Assembly: GCF_013033965.1 (NCBI RefSeq)
Contig: NZ_WQFE01000009.1
Span: 124,001-188,000 of the forward strand
DNA: 64,000 bases
Direction: 5' to 3'
DNA from: Ruegeria atlantica
GTDB lineage: Bacteria; Pseudomonadota; Alphaproteobacteria; Rhodobacterales; Rhodobacteraceae
Within the stretch, counting starts at the first letter, position 1; each line of letters starts with the position of its first letter. The position numbers and the translations under genes are program-made. Of the stretch, positions 49,855-60,928 are shown one piece after another. The notes under the pieces were generated by a model. It had not been told where the DNA came from. It was given only the letters and a program-made list of their open reading frames with translations, and searched no databases.

Positions 49855-52800
49855 CTAGTTCGACACGTAGCCCGCGATTACCTGCAACAGCTTGAACGCC
49901 GTTGCAGCGTCGTTTTCAACCACGGCCAGGAATTCTTCTTCGCCGATCCGCAGGCAAGACAGCTCTGTCTCGGCGATCATGCTAAGAGCCCGAGGTTCCT
50001 TGCGGATCAGCCCCAACTCTCCGACCAACGCTCCGGGCCCGACCTTGACAATCAACTGATCTGCCCCATCAAGCTGCGGCAGATACAACCCGGCTTCTCC
50101 TTCCAGCACCACATAAGCGCCATCCGTTGGCTGATCGTCTTTGAGGAAAACAATCTCTCCTGCTTTGGCATCGAACCAGCGCGCACCAAAGGCCAACAGG
50201 CGCAACTGTCGGCGATCCAGCCCGGAAAACAGCGGCGTCTGTTCGAGCGCCCGCAGCTTGCGCGCAAGGTCAGCCGAGGCGGCACTGTCTTCTTCCACGT
50301 CCACCGGTCCTTCGTCAGAGACGACCCGACCTTGCCTGATTTCGACATACATGTCGAACACATCAGGGCTGTCGAACTGATCGTTCAGATAGATCACCGT
50401 GGTATCCGGCAAGAGCGCACGCAGGTTTTTGTAAACCGCCACTTTTGAGGCCATGTCATAGCTGGCCAACGCATCCTCAAGAATCAGAATGTCCGGTTTC
50501 TTGATCGTTGCGCGTGTGAAAGACAGGGGTTCGGCAAAGACCGCGGGCAGGTTTTGCCCACCGAGCGCCACCGGGACGTCATAGATCAGTTCGACCACCA
50601 GCGGGCGCGCACCGTTTTCATTCAGGACATCCACGATCAGTTTGCGCGCCTCATCCGAACGGGCACCACCGATCTGACTGACTTTTCCGAACAAAGCGTT
50701 TTCCAGAACCGTCAAGCCGGGCGCAAACTTCGATTTGTCCAATGGCACAAACACGTCCAGCAACCGTTCCAGCAGCTTTTCCGAGTGGCTATGCCGCAGC
50801 TCAAGTATTCGGTCTTTGAGGTCATCGGTGAACGCCGGACCAATCTGTTCCGCCGAAATCACGAACGGAACGGCCAACAAATTCGCAAGCTGTTCATCAT
50901 CCAACCCCGAAACGCCTTCGTTCCGGGTTTTCTCGACCAGCTCCACCGCGGACTCATAGGTCTGCGCCTCCAACCCCAGTTTGCGGAACAGGGGATGATC
51001 GGTGCCGTCCAGGCCGAAAATCTGGCGCAGCATCTCGATCACATCGCGCGTCAGGCTGACCAGAGTTTCGTCCAGACCAAATTCACGTAGCTGTCCCAGA
51101 AACACGGTCTGTTGCGCCAAAAGTTCCTGTGTGACCGGCACTTTGGGCGTGGCAAACAGCAAGTTTTCCGCAACCGGCAATGCCGGATTATAGCTGTCGC
51201 GATCAAAGATCAAAGCCTGCTGATCCAGCCCCGAGTTTTTCACCGCGTCCTGAACCAAGGGACGCAATTCGACCAGTTTGTCGGCCAATTCGGGGTGTTC
51301 TGTGGCATCAAAAACCTGTTCGGCCCCGCGCAAGAACAACGCTGCGCCAGAGCCCATCCCATCAATCAGCTTCAGCCACCAGTCGCGCACCTCTTCAGCA
51401 TTTTCCAATCCCGCAATGGTCGGGTCCAGCCAATTTGCCTTGAATGGGTCAGCGCTATTTCCGGCCCGCAGGGTCTCATCATGTCCGGGGTCGCTCGTTT
51501 CCGTTGTCTGTGGCTTGAACCGCATCGGCATCATGACGTTGTCGCCCAGCGTGCCCTGGAACATCACCGGTCGGGACGACGCGTACCCAATGCGCGCCGC
51601 CACGACGCTTTGGTGCAGCTCGGACAGATTGACGTCACCTATCCGAACCCGGCCTGAGCTGGGCAAGATTTCCCGCGTCAGCAACTCGGCGACAGCGCGG
51701 CGGTCCTCTTCGCTGGGGGCGGCAATTCCAATGATTTTTCCACTGGAAAATGTCAGATCCAGATCATCCAGAATCTGATTGCCGTCCATATCGCGGACCG
51801 AGACATGATCCAGCACAATGTCGCCGTTCAGCCTTGGATTGGCGTCGGGTTCGCCTTCGAACAGTTTTTCGTTGTGCATTCCAGCTGGTGCAAACCGTTC
51901 GGTCACCACGTCCCACCGCAGCGACATGTCCTGTGTCTGGTTGTAGTAGGTCAACAGTTCCTTCCACGGCGAGCTGAGGTCCTTGTACGCGGCCAAGGCC
52001 GCAACCAGAGCCCCCAAAGACACCGACCCCTGCAAAACCAGAAGACCGCCAACCAGATAAAACAGGAACGGCGTAAGCTGCGAAATGAAGTTGTTTATGA
52101 ATTTCATAAAGAACTTCTTCTGGTAGATCTCGAACCGGATGCCAAACAAGCGCCCCAGCTGATCGGAAACCATTGCGCGACGATACCGCCACCCACCGTT
52201 GGCACGCAATGTGGACGCACCCGCCGCGTTCTCGCCGATCTGGGCGGCAAGCACCCGCACTTCTTGAATTCGTTTTTTGTTTAGAAGGTTGATCTGGCGT
52301 TGCAGCTTCGGGATCAGCCAGGCTTGCAATGGGATTAGCGCAATTGCCGCCAACCCGAACCAGAAGCTTTGCAAAAACAGAAAGGACAGGATGGTGATCA
52401 TCTGACCCGCCTGCAAAACCGGTTGGCTAATCGCATCCCCCATAAGCCCACCCATCGGTTCGCTTTCGGCGGTGACCATCGACACCAGCTCGCCTTGGCT
52501 GACACGCTCAAAATAGGGTTGAGGGAAACGCAACGCGCGACTGATCAGCACATACCGGAACCGGCGCAGCATACGCTCGCTCAGCACGCCCTTCATCGTG
52601 TTGATGCGCATTTTCATCAGGCCATGCGCCAGCACCGCCACAAGGAACCCGATACACAGAACGATCAGAAATGTTGTCTGCGGCAGGCTATAGCCCCACA
52701 CATCCACAACTGGACTGGCGGCACCGATTGCATCGTTGATGATGCGTTTGGGCAGTTCAAGCGTCAGATAGAGCAGTGGAAACAAGGTCGACGTCACGGC

Positions 52801-52863
52801 CAGCAGAATCAACTGGTCGCGCTTCGAGTACTTCCAAATAAACTGGAAAATTGAACGTTCTAT
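49855..52863 (-). CDS. ABC-type membrane protein with degenerate nucleotide-binding domain and C-terminal cyclic-nucleotide-binding domain
   Basis: About 1000 residues. First comes an ABC exporter transmembrane domain (six helices, about 1-310). The NBD that follows lacks a Walker A lysine: IIGIAAPSEEDRR stands where GxxGxGKS/T should be. The signature region reads PLSFTRATIKKPD instead of LSGGQ, and the Walker B region reads ILILEDALASYD. A roughly 270-residue insert splits the NBD and contains two further Q-loop-like blocks. Residues about 860-1000 form a cNMP-binding domain (VLEGEAGLYLPQ, GALVGELGLI). The first standard start is TTG at 52812, but the frame continues upstream through ERSIFQFIWKYSKRDQ to an ATA at 52863, where I expect the true start. 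Confidence 0.85.
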   Translation of the reverse strand: MERSIFQFIWKYSKRDQLILLAVTSTLFPLLYLTLELPKRIINDAIGAASPVVDVWGYSLPQTTFLIVLCIGFLVAVLAHGLMKMRINTMKGVLSERMLRRFRYVLISRALRFPQPYFERVSQGELVSMVTAESEPMGGLMGDAISQPVLQAGQMITILSFLFLQSFWFGLAAIALIPLQAWLIPKLQRQINLLNKKRIQEVRVLAAQIGENAAGASTLRANGGWRYRRAMVSDQLGRLFGIRFEIYQKKFFMKFINNFISQLTPFLFYLVGGLLVLQGSVSLGALVAALAAYKDLSSPWKELLTYYNQTQDMSLRWDVVTERFAPAGMHNEKLFEGEPDANPRLNGDIVLDHVSVRDMDGNQILDDLDLTFSSGKIIGIAAPSEEDRRAVAELLTREILPSSGRVRIGDVNLSELHQSVVAARIGYASSRPVMFQGTLGDNVMMPMRFKPQTTETSDPGHDETLRAGNSADPFKANWLDPTIAGLENAEEVRDWWLKLIDGMGSGAALFLRGAEQVFDATEHPELADKLVELRPLVQDAVKNSGLDQQALIFDRDSYNPALPVAENLLFATPKVPVTQELLAQQTVFLGQLREFGLDETLVSLTRDVIEMLRQIFGLDGTDHPLFRKLGLEAQTYESAVELVEKTRNEGVSGLDDEQLANLLAVPFVISAEQIGPAFTDDLKDRILELRHSHSEKLLERLLDVFVPLDKSKFAPGLTVLENALFGKVSQIGGARSDEARKLIVDVLNENGARPLVVELIYDVPVALGGQNLPAVFAEPLSFTRATIKKPDILILEDALASYDMASKVAVYKNLRALLPDTTVIYLNDQFDSPDVFDMYVEIRQGRVVSDEGPVDVEEDSAASADLARKLRALEQTPLFSGLDRRQLRLLAFGARWFDAKAGEIVFLKDDQPTDGAYVVLEGEAGLYLPQLDGADQLIVKVGPGALVGELGLIRKEPRALSMIAETELSCLRIGEEEFLAVVENDAATAFKLLQVIAGYVSN

Positions 52864-54255: not shown

Positions 54256-55560
54256 CTACCCCAATACCGAAAAACTGCTTTCTTCGTTTATCGGACGCTT
54301 GCGCGAGTAGAACCCGACATCAATGTTCCGCCCGATGTAGGGAAGCTTGTACTGCAGCGGTTGCGCATCGTGATCCGCGCCGCCCTCGCAATACTCTATC
54401 AACGCCGTCATCATTTTACCCGCGATCGGAGCATTCTTGTACTGGTTCCCGCTGGTCCCGCAGGCCATGTAGAACCCCGGCAGGCTGGATTTGTCATAGA
54501 TCGGGATCCAGTCGGTCGATGCGTCGTACAGATCCACAACGCCGCGTGTCTTGGATGGAATGCCAAGGCTGGGCACACGCTGCGCATATCGCATGGCCTG
54601 CGTTGTCCACTGGTCAGTGAAGTCATGGTTATAGTGCACATCATCCTCGCACCACTGATGCGGATCACATTCGGGATCTTCCGAGCCGACCAGAATGTGA
54701 TTGCCATGTTCGGGGCGACAGTAGCAGGCGATATCGCTGTCCGAGACAATCGTGCCGTCATTTTCAAAATCGAACCCTTCGGGCGCGGGCACGTGCACCA
54801 CTTCCTGCCGCAGGGGGCGGGTCTCGATGGTCATGTCATCCAGAACATCGGCCATCTTGTTGATGATTGCTGAACCGGGGCCTGCGACGTTTACAACAAC
54901 CTTCGCGTGGATTTCCTCACCCGACGCCAGTTTCACTCCCGAAACACGCCCTTCGGAAGACAGTATTTCGACAACCTCGGCCCCGGTGCGAACCTCGGCA
55001 CCGTGCTGTTTGGCGGCATCCATCAGGTTTTGCGCTGACAAGGCAGGATCAGTGACGTATCCGGCCTGCGGCCAGAAGACACCGCCCTGCATCTTGCGCC
55101 CGTTGGGCTGTCCGAACTCCGGGTCATCCATACGGCGCGCTGGCGCAAAACTGTCTTGCGAGTAGATTGGCAGGCGCTCACTGACTTTATCGGCTGACCA
55201 ATCTTCAAACGGGCAATCCAGATCGGTGCTGTTCTTCATATGCTTTTCCAGCATACCGTTCGCGTCGGTCTTCATCACCAGACAGCCGGTTTCGCGGAAT
55301 TGCGCCAGATTGGCACCTTCGGGCAAGCCAAGGTAGTCGGCCCAATCGCGCCAATAGTGGTACCCTTCCCACGCGAAGGCGGTTCCGTCGAAGGTCGAAT
55401 AATGCATGCGGATAATGGCACATGACCCGGCGGTTGATCCGTGGCCAACCTGACTGTTTCGGTCCAGCGACAGGGTTTTCCAGCCCGCCTTGGCCATTTC
55501 AAAGGCAATGGCCGCGCCGATCACACCTGTTCCGATGATGATTGCGTCAGGTTGACTCAT
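54256..55560 (-). CDS. FAD-dependent amine oxidoreductase (sarcosine-oxidase-like, DAO family)
   Basis: 434 residues. FAD-binding IIIGTGVIGAAIAFEMAKAG at the N-terminus, HGSTAGSCAIIRMHYS next to the flavin, and a C-terminal YMACGTSGNQYKNAPIAGKMM. The pattern is that of sarcosine oxidase beta and glycine oxidase relatives, which oxidise N-methyl or amino groups. Its ATG (55560) overlaps the TetR stop by four bases, so it is the last gene of the operon with the MttB-like protein. It likely oxidises the partly demethylated product. Confidence 0.88.
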   Translation of the reverse strand: MSQPDAIIIGTGVIGAAIAFEMAKAGWKTLSLDRNSQVGHGSTAGSCAIIRMHYSTFDGTAFAWEGYHYWRDWADYLGLPEGANLAQFRETGCLVMKTDANGMLEKHMKNSTDLDCPFEDWSADKVSERLPIYSQDSFAPARRMDDPEFGQPNGRKMQGGVFWPQAGYVTDPALSAQNLMDAAKQHGAEVRTGAEVVEILSSEGRVSGVKLASGEEIHAKVVVNVAGPGSAIINKMADVLDDMTIETRPLRQEVVHVPAPEGFDFENDGTIVSDSDIACYCRPEHGNHILVGSEDPECDPHQWCEDDVHYNHDFTDQWTTQAMRYAQRVPSLGIPSKTRGVVDLYDASTDWIPIYDKSSLPGFYMACGTSGNQYKNAPIAGKMMTALIEYCEGGADHDAQPLQYKLPYIGRNIDVGFYSRKRPINEESSFSVLG

Positions 55561-56231
55561 GAGGCTTCTCCCTTCCAATAGCGCATTGAGTAGGCGCTGA
55601 ATTCTTCGACTTCCTCGGGCTTGGGCTCAACCCCGGTGAAGACGTAAAGGTAATGCGGAACCATTGCGATCCGCGTGGGCATTGGCTCGTTCAATTGGGC
55701 CAGATCATAACCGATCTGCATGTAGTACAGCACGCGGGCGCGCGTTTCGGCCTCGACCTCGGAATAGCCATAGCGCGCAAACATGTCGTGTAGGGCCGCC
55801 AACCGGCGTGCATCCGACTGATCCAGCGCACGGCGCACTTTTCCTGACTTACGAGCCCAGTCGCGCACAGCAAAATCCAGCGCGGTATCAAACAATTCGG
55901 TGTTCACCACACAGCGATGCACATTGCAGACCGCCGCGGTGATAGTATTTGCCGGAGCCTCGGCCTGCGCGACCAAAGCAGCTGTGTTTGTCGCCTGCCA
56001 CCGCGCCATCAACGCGTCCAAAAGCTCCTGCCGGGATTTGAAGTACCAATAGAAGGACGACCGCGACACGGCCATCCGTTCAGCCAGGTTCATGACCTTG
56101 ATCTGATCCACACCGTCCGAGATCAAAACATCCATAGCCACGTTCAGCCAATCGTCACGCGTGACTTTGATGTTGCCAACCAATGGTTCGGCTTCGGGGT
56201 CATCCCGATGCAGGATGGGTTTGGTACTCAT
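55557..56231 (-). CDS. TetR-family regulator of the amine operon
   Basis: 224 residues. The helix-turn-helix is LAERMAVSRSSFYWYFKSRQEL; the rest is a helical ligand-binding domain. The ATG follows the mttB-like stop with no gap, and the stop overlaps the flavoprotein start, so it is translated within the operon. Palindromes upstream of the first gene (60229-60260) are its probable operator. The ligand is probably the pathway substrate. Confidence 0.9.
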   Translation of the reverse strand: MSTKPILHRDDPEAEPLVGNIKVTRDDWLNVAMDVLISDGVDQIKVMNLAERMAVSRSSFYWYFKSRQELLDALMARWQATNTAALVAQAEAPANTITAAVCNVHRCVVNTELFDTALDFAVRDWARKSGKVRRALDQSDARRLAALHDMFARYGYSEVEAETRARVLYYMQIGYDLAQLNEPMPTRIAMVPHYLYVFTGVEPKPEEVEEFSAYSMRYWKGEAS

Positions 56232-57782
56232 CTAACTCTCCGGCGGGGCGCCGCCTTCAGAGGTACGGCGCGCAATAAACTCGTGCAAGGCACCCATTCG
56301 GTCGCTGTCACCTGGAGGAGGCTTAAAGTCGTTCAGAATACCCTTCCAAACCGCGGTCGCACGATGATTGGCATCCACCGATCCGCGTTCCGTCCAGGTT
56401 CCGAAATTGGCGTAGTCGTGCAAATGCGGTTCGTAGAATTCGGTGTTGTACCGCGCCATAGTCTGGGATGAAGCAAAAAAGTGTCCGCTGGGTTCAACCT
56501 CGCTGAGGGCGGTGTCGAAACCGATCTCGGCCGTGCCTGCCTGCGTCCCCGCGCACAGCTCGGCGACCATGTTCAAAACCTCGGCGTCGCAGATCATCTT
56601 CTCGAAAGAAACGGTCAAGCCGCCCTCCAACCAACCGGCCGAGTGAATAATCACCGTCGCCCCTGCCATCAGACAACCCCAAAGCCCGAACTGGTTTTCA
56701 TTGGCTGCCTGCACATCGTTTGTATTCGACGCCGACCCTGCGGCGGACCGCCAAGGTAGGCACAGATGCCGTGCCAACTGGCCTGCGGCCAGCGAGGCCT
56801 GGAAGTGTGACGGCGTACCAAATGCAGGTGCGCCCGATTTCATGTCCACATTGCTGGTGAACGTGCCGTAGCAAACCGGCGCGCCCGGCTTGGTCAACTG
56901 AGTCAGCGTCAGCGCCGCCAAGGCCTCGGCATGCGACAGCGTAATCGCTCCGGCCACGGTGATCGGGGCCATCGCGCCCATCAAAGTGAACGGCGTGATG
57001 ATCGCCATCTGACCATTGCGTGCGAAATCAATCAGCCCCTGAGCCATCGGGATATCCAACGTGCGCGGGCTGTTCGTGTTGATGATCGTGTAGCAATGCG
57101 CGCCCGCCTGAAACTCTTCATCGGACAGACCCCGCGCGGTCGACAGCATCTCAAAACAATCCATCACCTGCGGCGTCCCGCGTGAGAAGAAGAACGGGAA
57201 CTTGTCGGTCAGTTCCATTTGCGCCTGCGTCGTGAAGTAATGGCGCAGGTTCGTTGGCACATCCTGCGGCTCGACCTGAGGCGAAATCATCTGGAACACA
57301 TCGAAGTGATGCGTGAGCTTTAGGAACTCCAGATAGTCTTGACCAGTCGCGGGGCGGCGCCCACGTTCCAGATCCGTTGCGTTCGGAGCCCCTGCCCCAG
57401 GCTGGAACACCAATGATCCGAGTTCAAGCGTGAAATCCCGATGCCGCGCGCCGGCACGGCAAGAAATCGCTTTGGGAGCAGAGGCAACTGCTGCCTCGAC
57501 AATATCGCGCCCGATGAAAACCATTTCGGTGTCTTCATCCACATGCGCGCCCGCCTTCGCAAAGATGCGCCGCGCTTCGGGCAGCAGGCATTTGATCCCA
57601 AGCTCCTGCAGGGTACGTAGCGCGGTTTCATGCATCTCGGCGATCTGATCCGCCGGAAAAACCTCCATCACAGGAAAAGGGTTTTTTAGCTGGCGGTAGT
57701 TCACGTCCCGACTGGGCGCAGGCGCAGTTTCGGCACCTCGTCCGCGCCGCCGCCTTCCTCGTTCGGATGTTTGCCCGATCAT
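56232..57782 (-). CDS. MttB-family (trimethylamine methyltransferase) protein without pyrrolysine
   Basis: 516 residues of the MttB TIM-barrel family. The frame has no internal amber codon, so this is the non-pyrrolysine branch, whose studied members such as MtgB demethylate quaternary amines (glycine betaine and others). The N-terminal 25 residues are Arg-rich and likely disordered. Family-like stretches are YFTTQAQMELTDKFPFFFSR and the C-terminal YEPHLHDYANFGTWTERG. It starts two bases after the DMGDH/GcvT-like gene stop. No corrinoid protein is encoded here, so direct coupling to tetrahydrofolate or a corrinoid partner elsewhere is needed. Confidence 0.88.
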   Translation of the reverse strand: MIGQTSERGRRRRGRGAETAPAPSRDVNYRQLKNPFPVMEVFPADQIAEMHETALRTLQELGIKCLLPEARRIFAKAGAHVDEDTEMVFIGRDIVEAAVASAPKAISCRAGARHRDFTLELGSLVFQPGAGAPNATDLERGRRPATGQDYLEFLKLTHHFDVFQMISPQVEPQDVPTNLRHYFTTQAQMELTDKFPFFFSRGTPQVMDCFEMLSTARGLSDEEFQAGAHCYTIINTNSPRTLDIPMAQGLIDFARNGQMAIITPFTLMGAMAPITVAGAITLSHAEALAALTLTQLTKPGAPVCYGTFTSNVDMKSGAPAFGTPSHFQASLAAGQLARHLCLPWRSAAGSASNTNDVQAANENQFGLWGCLMAGATVIIHSAGWLEGGLTVSFEKMICDAEVLNMVAELCAGTQAGTAEIGFDTALSEVEPSGHFFASSQTMARYNTEFYEPHLHDYANFGTWTERGSVDANHRATAVWKGILNDFKPPPGDSDRMGALHEFIARRTSEGGAPPES

Positions 57783-57784
57783 GA

Positions 57785-60187
57785 TCAGCCCCGCATCGCC
57801 TTGCCTTGCGGGTCGTATGGCGATGGGGCGACAACGCGCGCCGGGCGTTCAACGCCTACCACATGCACAGATAGTCCTGTTCCAGGTTCGGCCTTATCGC
57901 GATTGACCAGCGCCATCGCCAGCGACTTGCCTGTGTAGTGGCCATACCCGCCTGATGTCACAAATCCGACGCGTTCTTCTCCTGCCCAAACAGGTTCATA
58001 TCCGCTGGCATCCGCGTCGACGGCATCCACCTCCAGTGTCACCTGAATTTGAGCGGGTCCGTTGCCATCGCGTTCTGCGACCGCGGCATCCTTGCCAATA
58101 AAGTCCTTGTCCCAATCGATCCAGCGATCCATGCCGGTCATGCCCGGAGTGTAGAGCTGCGTGAACTCTGCCGACCAGATGCCAAAACTCTTTTCCAACC
58201 GCGTCGACAACATGGCGTTGAAGCCGCATTCGCGAATGCCCTCGTCCGCTCCTGCCTCAAGCAGAATGCGGCGTAGTTTGATGTGGTCTCCGTAGCGGCA
58301 GTTGATCTCGTACCCTTTCTCGCCTGTCACGGACATCCGAGCGACGCGCGCGCGGACAAGTCCAATATCAAAATCGCCGCAGCCCATGAATTTCAGGCTC
58401 GATATGTCCTGTTCGGCCAGTTTTTCGATCACGGCCTGAGATTTAGGACCAACGACAGCAAACCCGCAGTATTCCTCACCCAGATCACGTACATTGACAC
58501 CGTCGATCATGTGATCGTCGAACCAGCGCATGTGCCATGCCCGCAGGTAATAGCTGCCCATGATCCACCATGTGCCATCGCCCCAGTTGAGCACCGTGAG
58601 GTCCCCTTTGAGCCGCCCGTTCTCACCCAGCATCGGCGCCAGCTTCGCCCGACCGGGCGCGGGCAGTTTTGAGGCCATGACTTTGTCCAGCCAAATCTCA
58701 GCATTCGAGCCACTGACCTCGAACCGCGAAAAACCTGAGATATCCAACAGGCCCACGCCTTCGCGGATCACCCTGCATTCCTCAGCCACGATGTCATGCG
58801 CGTTCGAGCGTTTGAGCGTCGGCGTTTCCTCGAACCCTTTCGGTGCGAAATAGAGCGGCACCTCCAGATCCCAGCTGACGCCCCATTTGCACCCGGCCTC
58901 GGTCATCGCGTCATGCGCTGGGGCCATCTTTAGCGGCCGCCCCGCGGGCAGTTGCTCGTTCGGGTAGGTCATTACAAAGCGGCGGGAATAAAACTGGCCC
59001 GTGGTTTCACGGATATACCGTTTGTTCTGCGCAAAATCACCAAAGCGCGCCACGTCCATTGGCCAGGCATCCGCCTCGGGCTCGCCATGGATCATCCATT
59101 CAGCCAGCGTTTTGCCGACGCCTCCGCCCTGCAGAAAGCCTGCCATAACCGCGCAGGCCGACCAATAGCCGCGCTTGCCCGGTACCGGGCCGACCAGCGG
59201 GTTACCGTCGGGCGCAAAGGTGAAGGCACCGTTTACCCATGTCTTGATACCCACATTCTGGATTGACGGATAACGTTCAAAGCCCAGTGTCAGCTCGTTC
59301 TCGATCCTGTCGAGCTGCTCCTGAAACAGTTCCTCACCGTAGTTCCACGGTGCGCCGTCCATGGCCCAGTGTTCGTGATCGACCTCATAGATACCGACCA
59401 GAACGCCTTTCTGATCCTGCCGCATATAGGTGAACCCTTCGAGGTCTACGGTCATAGGCATCTCGAATTCGGCTTCAGCGACCTCGGGAACTGTATCGGT
59501 GATCAGGTAGTGGTGTTTCAGAGGAGACACCGGCAGCTCCACCCCGGCCATGCGCCCTACTTGCTTGGCCCAAAGGCCGGCGGCATTAACCACGTGTTCG
59601 CAAGTGATCGTGCCCCTATCGGTAACAACCTGCCAGCCATCGTCGATCTGGATCAGCTCCTCGACCTTGGTTTCTTCGTAGTACTCCGCGCCACGCTTTT
59701 TCGCGGCTGTCGCATAGGCCTGAACCGTGCCGGTGGTGTCGATATACCCCTCACGGTCCGCCCACATGGCACCCAGCACGCCGTCGGTGGACATGATCGG
59801 GCACCGCCTTTGCGCCTCTTCCGGAGATAACAATTCGCAGTCATCAATGCCGATAGACTGAAAGATGCGGTAGTTCGCCTGAAGCCACTCCCACCGTTCC
59901 GGCGTGCCCGCCAGTGTCAGACCACCGGTCATATGCAGACCGATGTTCTGGCCGGATTCCTTTTCAATCTCGCTGAGCAGATCGATCGTATAGGCCTGCA
60001 GGGATGCCATGTTCGGATCGGCGTTCAGCGCGTGAATGCCACCCGCAGCATGCCAGGATGAACCCGAAGCCAACCGCCGTCGTTCCAGCATGACCACATC
60101 CGACCAGCCAAACTTGGCCAGATGATACAGAACCGAGGCACCCACGACGCCGCCCCCGATGACCACAACGCGATACTGAGATTTCAT
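57785..60187 (-). CDS. dimethylglycine-dehydrogenase-like FAD / GcvT fusion
   Basis: 800 residues. Residues 1-380 form a DAO-type FAD domain: GGGVVGASVLYHL at 11-23 and His46 in SGSSWHAAGG, the position that carries covalent FAD in DMGDH and sarcosine dehydrogenase. A FAO-M linker is followed by GCV_T (about 440-690) and GCV_T_C (700-790) folate-binding domains. Such enzymes oxidise N-methyl groups and pass the one-carbon unit to tetrahydrofolate. AGGGGAG lies before the ATG at 60187. It is the first gene of the operon, under a palindromic operator. Confidence 0.92.
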   Translation of the reverse strand: MKSQYRVVVIGGGVVGASVLYHLAKFGWSDVVMLERRRLASGSSWHAAGGIHALNADPNMASLQAYTIDLLSEIEKESGQNIGLHMTGGLTLAGTPERWEWLQANYRIFQSIGIDDCELLSPEEAQRRCPIMSTDGVLGAMWADREGYIDTTGTVQAYATAAKKRGAEYYEETKVEELIQIDDGWQVVTDRGTITCEHVVNAAGLWAKQVGRMAGVELPVSPLKHHYLITDTVPEVAEAEFEMPMTVDLEGFTYMRQDQKGVLVGIYEVDHEHWAMDGAPWNYGEELFQEQLDRIENELTLGFERYPSIQNVGIKTWVNGAFTFAPDGNPLVGPVPGKRGYWSACAVMAGFLQGGGVGKTLAEWMIHGEPEADAWPMDVARFGDFAQNKRYIRETTGQFYSRRFVMTYPNEQLPAGRPLKMAPAHDAMTEAGCKWGVSWDLEVPLYFAPKGFEETPTLKRSNAHDIVAEECRVIREGVGLLDISGFSRFEVSGSNAEIWLDKVMASKLPAPGRAKLAPMLGENGRLKGDLTVLNWGDGTWWIMGSYYLRAWHMRWFDDHMIDGVNVRDLGEEYCGFAVVGPKSQAVIEKLAEQDISSLKFMGCGDFDIGLVRARVARMSVTGEKGYEINCRYGDHIKLRRILLEAGADEGIRECGFNAMLSTRLEKSFGIWSAEFTQLYTPGMTGMDRWIDWDKDFIGKDAAVAERDGNGPAQIQVTLEVDAVDADASGYEPVWAGEERVGFVTSGGYGHYTGKSLAMALVNRDKAEPGTGLSVHVVGVERPARVVAPSPYDPQGKAMRG

Positions 60188-60228: not shown

Positions 60229-60260
60229 CTGTTCACTTCTGTCTAGACATTTCTGTACAG
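60229..60260. promoter_or_regulatory. palindrome cluster, probable TetR operator
   Basis: TGTCTAGACA at 60240-60249 and CTGTACAG at 60253-60260 are both perfect palindromes, three bases apart, with an extra half-site CTGTTCA at 60229-60235. They lie 42-73 bases before the first gene of the TetR-containing operon. Confidence 0.6.
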
Positions 60261-60298: not shown

Positions 60299-60928
60299 TT
60301 AAAGTTGCGCGCTGGGGCGTGATGCGACCTTGTCAAACCATGCCAAGGTGGCCGTGTTCTCTTGCGGAATCTGCTTCTTGATCACGCGCGCAAAATCTAC
60401 AAACACAAAGGTGGAGATGTCAGCCAAGGTGAATTCCGAACCTGCAACAAATGTGCTTTCGACCAGACGCTGTTCAAGCAACGAAAAGAAATGGGAAACC
60501 CGCGCTGATCCACGTTGCGCCAATTCGGGGATCTGCGCATAGTTCACCGGACCCGGAATCGCCCGGTCGGCAAAAGCTGGGTGCGTGTTACGCAATGCCT
60601 CGGCAATAGGCATGCCGCCCTGCTGTTCAACAATACTGTTCCACATCAGAACCTGCCCCTTTTCATCAGGGGTGCGCCCCATCAGTGGTGGTTCGGGAAA
60701 CCGCGCCTCAAGATACGCAGCGATCCCCAGGTTCTCGGTCAACGCGATCCCCTCGTCGGTCACCAACACAGGAATGGTCGCATTCGGGTTTACGGCGCGA
60801 AAGTCGTCGCCGAGTTGCTCCCCCTTGCCGATCGAAACTTCTCGGGTTTCGATTTCCAAGCCCTTTTCCCCAATGAACATGCGCGCCCGGCGTGGGTTGG
60901 GGGCCGTGGAACAATCATAGAAAAGCAT
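60299..60928 (-). CDS. glutathione S-transferase
   Basis: 209 residues: an N-terminal thioredoxin-like domain (residues 1-80; IPVLVTDEGIALTENLGIAAYLE is the cis-Pro and glutathione gamma-Glu site, split at TEN) and an all-helical C-terminal domain with FTLADISTFVFVD. The Cys/Ser at the N-terminus (CSTAPNPRR) is the likely activating residue. It ends about 110 bases before the DMGDH-like gene and starts 17 bases after a methyltransferase gene. Confidence 0.9.
   Translation of the reverse strand: MLFYDCSTAPNPRRARMFIGEKGLEIETREVSIGKGEQLGDDFRAVNPNATIPVLVTDEGIALTENLGIAAYLEARFPEPPLMGRTPDEKGQVLMWNSIVEQQGGMPIAEALRNTHPAFADRAIPGPVNYAQIPELAQRGSARVSHFFSLLEQRLVESTFVAGSEFTLADISTFVFVDFARVIKKQIPQENTATLAWFDKVASRPSAQL

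Follow-up and report, generated by a model that had tools for sequence, protein, structure and literature searches.

The closest described counterpart of the locus reported here is the MtgBCD(E) system of R. pomeroyi, in which mtgC and mtgD mutants are incapable of glycine betaine use even when methionine is supplied. The MtgBCD and MtgE genes of this organism are dispersed rather than colocated, and up to seven pfam06253 genes occur per genome, for which the authors suggested other substrates (PMC12478193). A related arrangement is known from Eubacterium, where the MttB homologs MtpB, MtyB, MtcB and MthB differ in substrate and are served by a single MtgC (PMC12478193).

We analysed a 64,000-nucleotide stretch, hereafter the window, of a Ruegeria genome (4.67 Mb, 99.97% complete). 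It carries four minus-strand genes arranged head to tail and separated by 2, 0 and −4 bases, the order and spacing that a first-pass annotation had claimed and that the coordinates bear out. The genes, their order and conservation, the partner genes and the operator candidate described here were all computed in this work. The features are as follows:

57785..60187, minus strand: FAD/tetrahydrofolate DMGDH-GcvT fusion; ATG at 60187; Pfam DAO, FAO_M, GCV_T and GCV_T_C
56232..57782, minus strand: non-pyrrolysine MttB-superfamily methyltransferase; PF06253 (MTTB), 646 bits; MtgB/MttB relatives in PDB
55557..56231, minus strand: TetR-family regulator; TetR_N, 1.6e-10; kept after MttB
54256..55560, minus strand: DAO-family flavoprotein, presumed to act in a third demethylation; ATG at 55560; PF01266, 2.9e-49
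60240..60259, minus strand: candidate TetR operator; TGTACA-N4-TGTCTA (60244-60259) and palindrome TGTCTAGACA (60240-60249)

Conservation and Proposed Regulation of the Operon

Orthologs are present in 51 of the 54 genomes of the genus, the nearest named ones (93-94% identical) belonging to Ruegeria. Across 80 orthologous loci a DMGDH gene lies upstream of MttB in 74 and a TetR gene follows MttB in 73, both more often than chance would allow; the search found no DMGDH in the other six, of which one is a short contig. Plasmids of Leisingera, Mesorhizobium and Gemmobacter carry orthologous MttB-DMGDH pairs too. The operon as counted here excludes the adjoining GST, Methyltransf_17 and ABC ATPase genes, whose synteny is kept in Ruegeria only.

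Several neighbouring genes were recorded along the way. The GST gene (window 60299-60928) precedes the operon in Ruegeria, and a distant GST (22% identity) is also found upstream in Leisingera; just past the operon, positions 49855-52812 encode an apparent ABC transporter of 985 aa whose C-terminal domain resembles a cyclic-nucleotide-binding one. On Leisingera plasmids a cytochrome P450 gene can stand directly before MttB (L024:7778-9007 and L118:1721-2950), the hosts being L. caerulea, where the P450 gene comes after DMGDH, and Leisingera sp. S132; upstream, the Leisingera loci encode a protein of PNPOx-FNR-ferredoxin type that may serve as a reductase. At one locus with an orthologous MttB and no DMGDH, Rieske oxygenase-like, DAO-like and proline-racemase-like genes lie about 4-7 kb downstream (L083:15146-18477), a set that, as read from sequence starts only, calls to mind the catabolism of hydroxyproline betaine.

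Upstream of the DMGDH gene, the palindrome TGTCTAGACA is invariant in all 39 aligned Ruegeria-type rows, the window included, against a mean conservation of 0.66 elsewhere in the region; it occurs as a single copy in the whole genome, with 0.02 copies expected in the window. A matching dyad, T(A/G)GACA-N4-TGTC(T/C)A, is found upstream in most other orthologous loci, and the best match to TAGACAG-N2-CTGTCTA in 40 other loci has a mean of 2.9 mismatches versus 6.0 in shuffles, a comparison that is descriptive because the consensus derives partly from the same loci. The upstream dyad, including the palindrome, is likely the operator to which TetR would bind.

The MttB-Like Protein

The product of the second gene matches PF06253 over its full length (646.5 bits, residues 10-511). 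Its frame is open without internal stop, in agreement with the earlier remark that no amber codon is present; a pyrrolysine reading is ruled out by the lack of an in-frame amber codon, and in the sequence alignment Ala351 stands opposite the pyrrolysine of MttB. By sequence, its PDB relatives are MtgB (2qne/9yce), 4yyc and MttB. An AF2 model (pLDDT 80.9), based on an alignment that excludes plasmid-record sequences, returned 2qne, 9yce, 4yyc and 7xcl as top Foldseek matches, with E values down to 3e-38. Of these, 2qne and 9yce are MtgB of Desulfitobacterium hafniense (DhMtgB), 4yyc is from S. meliloti and 7xcl is MttB.

Our comparison of pocket residues is based on a docking study of DhMtgB, which predicted betaine contacts at Y94, N199, R309 and H345 (PMC6855144). 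In the alignment, N199, R309 and H345 are kept as N235, R345 and H380, while Y94 and F353 are replaced by Ala130 and Gly388; the position of Tyr94 is occupied by Ala, Ser or Cys across the window MttB clade, and W384 and E386 are invariant. The Tyr94 change is weak evidence against glycine betaine, as residue 94 is small in two other paralogs of the same genome that have the same pocket type. In a phylogenetic tree that leaves out two apparently misread rows (L112 and L117), the window clade has 100/100 support and both DhMtgB and S. meliloti 4yyc group outside it; within this tree, which was built without R. pomeroyi MtgB1/2, the MttB-like protein does not group with characterised MtgB. The source genome encodes 11 MttB paralogs (pfam06253), four of which lack the Asn/Arg/His pocket set in the alignment and group with pyrrolysine MttB in the tree. 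These four are L013, L017, L018 and L020; three of them sit near apparent aminotransferase, Rieske, agmatinase-like or transporter genes.

A Probable Shared Corrinoid Carrier Encoded Outside the Operon

The window had been reported to hold no gene for a corrinoid protein or its activator, and the sole B12-binding_2 and RACo_C_ter matches in the genome indeed lie on another contig. The genome-wide search for an MtbC/MtgC-type protein that the first-pass annotation had proposed yielded exactly one B12-binding_2 match, a stand-alone, MtgC-like corrinoid protein encoded on contig C34. It has both a B12-binding_2 and a B12-binding domain, and the motif GDIHDIG (DIHDIG). A DUF1638 gene lies near it. 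Elsewhere on C34, RamA (RACo) and a Pterin_bind (MtgD-like) protein are encoded together; the MetF-like neighbour of the latter has no Pfam match and was assigned by position only. Two stand-alone S-methyl_trans genes (MtgE-like) are present in the genome. The genome content is that of an MtgBCD system (stand-alone corrinoid protein, pterin-binding methyltransferase, RamA and DUF1638), with a ratio of MttB to corrinoid protein of 11:1. MtgC is the single candidate carrier in the genome for the MttB-like protein to methylate.

An MtgC-type gene was found in 228 of 248 sampled genomes of the family. Among near-complete genomes, MttB is present in 12/12 that are MtgC-positive versus 4/12 that are MtgC-negative (Fisher p 0.0013), in a small test that ignores kinship and in which the MtgC-positive controls were hand-picked. 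These controls have between 1 and 22 MttB genes each; eight of the 12 MtgC-negative genomes have none, and three of the four that do have MttB are fragmented assemblies. In the fourth, the 99% complete genome G140, a single MttB is present and the sole B12-binding_2 match falls within a 1276-aa open frame that is probably a fused MetH. At the other end of the range, the 5.2 Mb genome G252 combines 22 MttB and 21 FAO_M matches with a single B12-binding_2 protein.

Over 25 genomes, an FAO_M (DMGDH-type) gene lies within 6 kb of 37 of the 106 MttB genes, where 3.2 are expected and the maximum in 2000 draws of random placement was 11, the null being one that ignores general operon structure. Per-genome counts of MttB and FAO_M correlate (rho 0.95, 25 genomes). 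In the source genome, five of the 11 MttB genes have an FAO_M-type neighbour.

The Two Flavoproteins

The best solved relatives of the DMGDH-GcvT fusion are mitochondrial dimethylglycine dehydrogenases (E 2.6e-137). Its DAO-FAO_M-GCV_T-GCV_T_C architecture, together with the flavin-linking His and the GcvT Asp, places it in the DMGDH/DMGO family. The flavin-linking His of WHAAG, the oxidase-site His/Tyr and the GcvT Asp all align, and we assume for them the catalytic roles known from DMGO and DMGDH (flavin linkage, active-site His/Tyr, GcvT Asp). At 32.7% identity to human DMGDH, the protein is among the most diverged of 13 paralogs in its own genome and ranks 11th of them in score to the human enzyme, which makes dimethylglycine a less than obvious substrate for it. 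Some DMGDH genes of this genome are located away from MttB genes. On contig C47, a DMGDH-type gene accompanied by a GlxA-like regulator and a homocysteine S-methyltransferase gene (L122:4192-8612, partly read from sequence starts) is a candidate general dimethylglycine/betaine locus.

The fourth gene had been described as sarcosine-oxidase-like, a label that suits its place better than its sequence. Its product scores 55.6 bits against monomeric sarcosine oxidase (TIGR01377), under the curated cut-off of 479.65, and is 24% identical to SoxB over 421 columns (E 2e-10), so that the likeness is at superfamily level; its predicted structure (pLDDT 38) is too poor for use. The DAO gene is present in 35 of 38 Ruegeria-type loci, and in five other genera SoxB/SoxA genes occupy its position after TetR (L089, L092, L095, L102 and L104). 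The soxB gene scores above the NCBIfam cut-off in the three loci tested; in all five a soxA-like gene follows it, and SoxA scores below its curated cut-off. Because soxB stands in the DAO position, the exchange is presumed to be a functional replacement, in which case the fourth gene product would oxidise a mono-N-methyl product.

A Model for Stepwise Demethylation

We consider it probable that this operon serves a particular substrate as a branch of the MtgBCD system of roseobacters, carrying out stepwise demethylation by way of a shared MtgC. For this model we infer the use of MtgC by the MttB-like protein, the order of the steps, the inducer and the substrate. The MttB-like protein would take one methyl group off a betaine-type (trimethylammonium) compound and load it onto Co(I) of the shared MtgC, from which MtgD would pass it to tetrahydrofolate, or it would go via MtgE to methionine, with RamA and the DUF1638 protein keeping the cobalamin reduced. 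The DMGDH-GcvT fusion would oxidise the dimethylamine product and transfer the second carbon, as methylene, to folate, and the last methyl would be removed oxidatively by the DAO flavoprotein. TetR, bound at the dyad that precedes the first gene, would keep the operon repressed until relieved by the substrate or an intermediate. The idea of stepwise N-methyl amine demethylation with a distant corrinoid partner, already put forward in the first-pass annotation, is well supported by the partner on C34 and by the equally split system established genetically for glycine betaine in R. pomeroyi (PMC12478193).

Glycine betaine is a possible trimethylammonium substrate; the MttB clade, the Tyr to Ala change in the pocket and the diverged DMGDH suggest another betaine. 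An operon specific for glycine betaine, in which the MttB-like protein is an MtgB isozyme producing dimethylglycine, the DMGDH yields sarcosine and a DAO or SoxBDA-type oxidase yields glycine, would accord with the soxB (above cut-off) and soxA-like genes after TetR in five genera, with the intact architecture and catalytic residues of the DMGDH and with the three of four predicted betaine contacts that are kept. We nevertheless regard it as unlikely, since the MttB-like protein belongs to a separate clade (100/100) that includes neither DhMtgB nor the 4yyc group, Tyr94 is Ala, Ser or Cys throughout that clade (weak evidence, as noted), the DMGDH is only 11th of 13 in score to the human enzyme and SoxA falls under its curated cut-off.

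Two further readings would take the MttB-like protein out of corrinoid chemistry. DMGDH-type enzymes use tertiary amines as substrates without MttB, and some DMGDH genes of this genome are distant from MttB, as would befit flavoproteins that demethylate tertiary amines alone, with the MttB-like protein as a non-catalytic sensor or scaffold; four MttB paralogs of the genome do lack the N/R/H residues. The window protein, however, keeps N235, R345 and H380 along with the invariant W384 and E386, and its pairing with DMGDH is tight and conserved, which makes such a role very unlikely. A methyl transfer or removal without any corrinoid protein, the “corrinoid-free” option of the first-pass annotation, is hardly credible; genome content and the co-occurrence of MttB with MtgC led us to set it aside as the main reading. 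The operon and the window are without a corrinoid gene, G140 has a single MttB yet lacks a stand-alone corrinoid protein, and a P450 gene adjoins MttB in some Leisingera, but MtgC-type genes are near-universal in the family and MttB genes track them, the MttB-like protein has the MtgB/MttB fold and keeps three of the four predicted betaine contacts in the pocket, and action of MtgC in trans is proven in R. pomeroyi (PMC12478193).

Returning to the operon as a branch of the MtgBCD system, we give an even chance to a wider picture of hub-and-spoke B12 demethylation in roseobacters, in which one MtgC would serve up to about 20 MttB proteins, many with their own DMGDH, and this operon would be the branch for a betaine of undescribed catabolism. 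If the shared-carrier model is true, B12 supply and methionine synthesis would be tied to many methylated osmolytes beyond glycine betaine, and operons of this type would be gene markers for compounds with unresolved turnover. Because the layout is self-contained, with DMGDH, MttB, its own TetR and a unique operator candidate, the substrate question is directly testable by induction and gene removal.

Comparison with Known Systems

The R. pomeroyi MtgBCD(E) system (PMC12478193) has counterparts here of MtgC, MtgD, MtgE, RamA and DUF1638, likewise encoded away from the mttB-like genes, as well as many pfam06253 paralogs and the genes for later demethylation; the difference is that the window MttB belongs to a separate clade and has a DMGDH, a TetR and a flavoprotein dedicated to it. 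D. hafniense MtgB (2qne, 9yce) shares with the window protein the superfamily, the fold, the lack of pyrrolysine and the Asn/Arg/His of the predicted pocket. The two are about 31% identical and differ at Tyr94 (Ala130) and Phe353 (Gly388), and the window protein comes from a marine roseobacter with its carrier encoded elsewhere. The Eubacterium proteins MtpB, MtyB, MtcB and MthB, likened here by description, are similar in that several MttB homologs exist per single MtgC, whereas their hosts are anaerobic acetogens. Mitochondrial DMGDH and Arthrobacter DMGO match the first operon gene in domain order and catalytic residues, although the fusion is diverged from human DMGDH (32.7% identity). The operon, well conserved and so far uncharacterised, is probably one branch of the known, recently described pathway of cobalamin-dependent demethylation.
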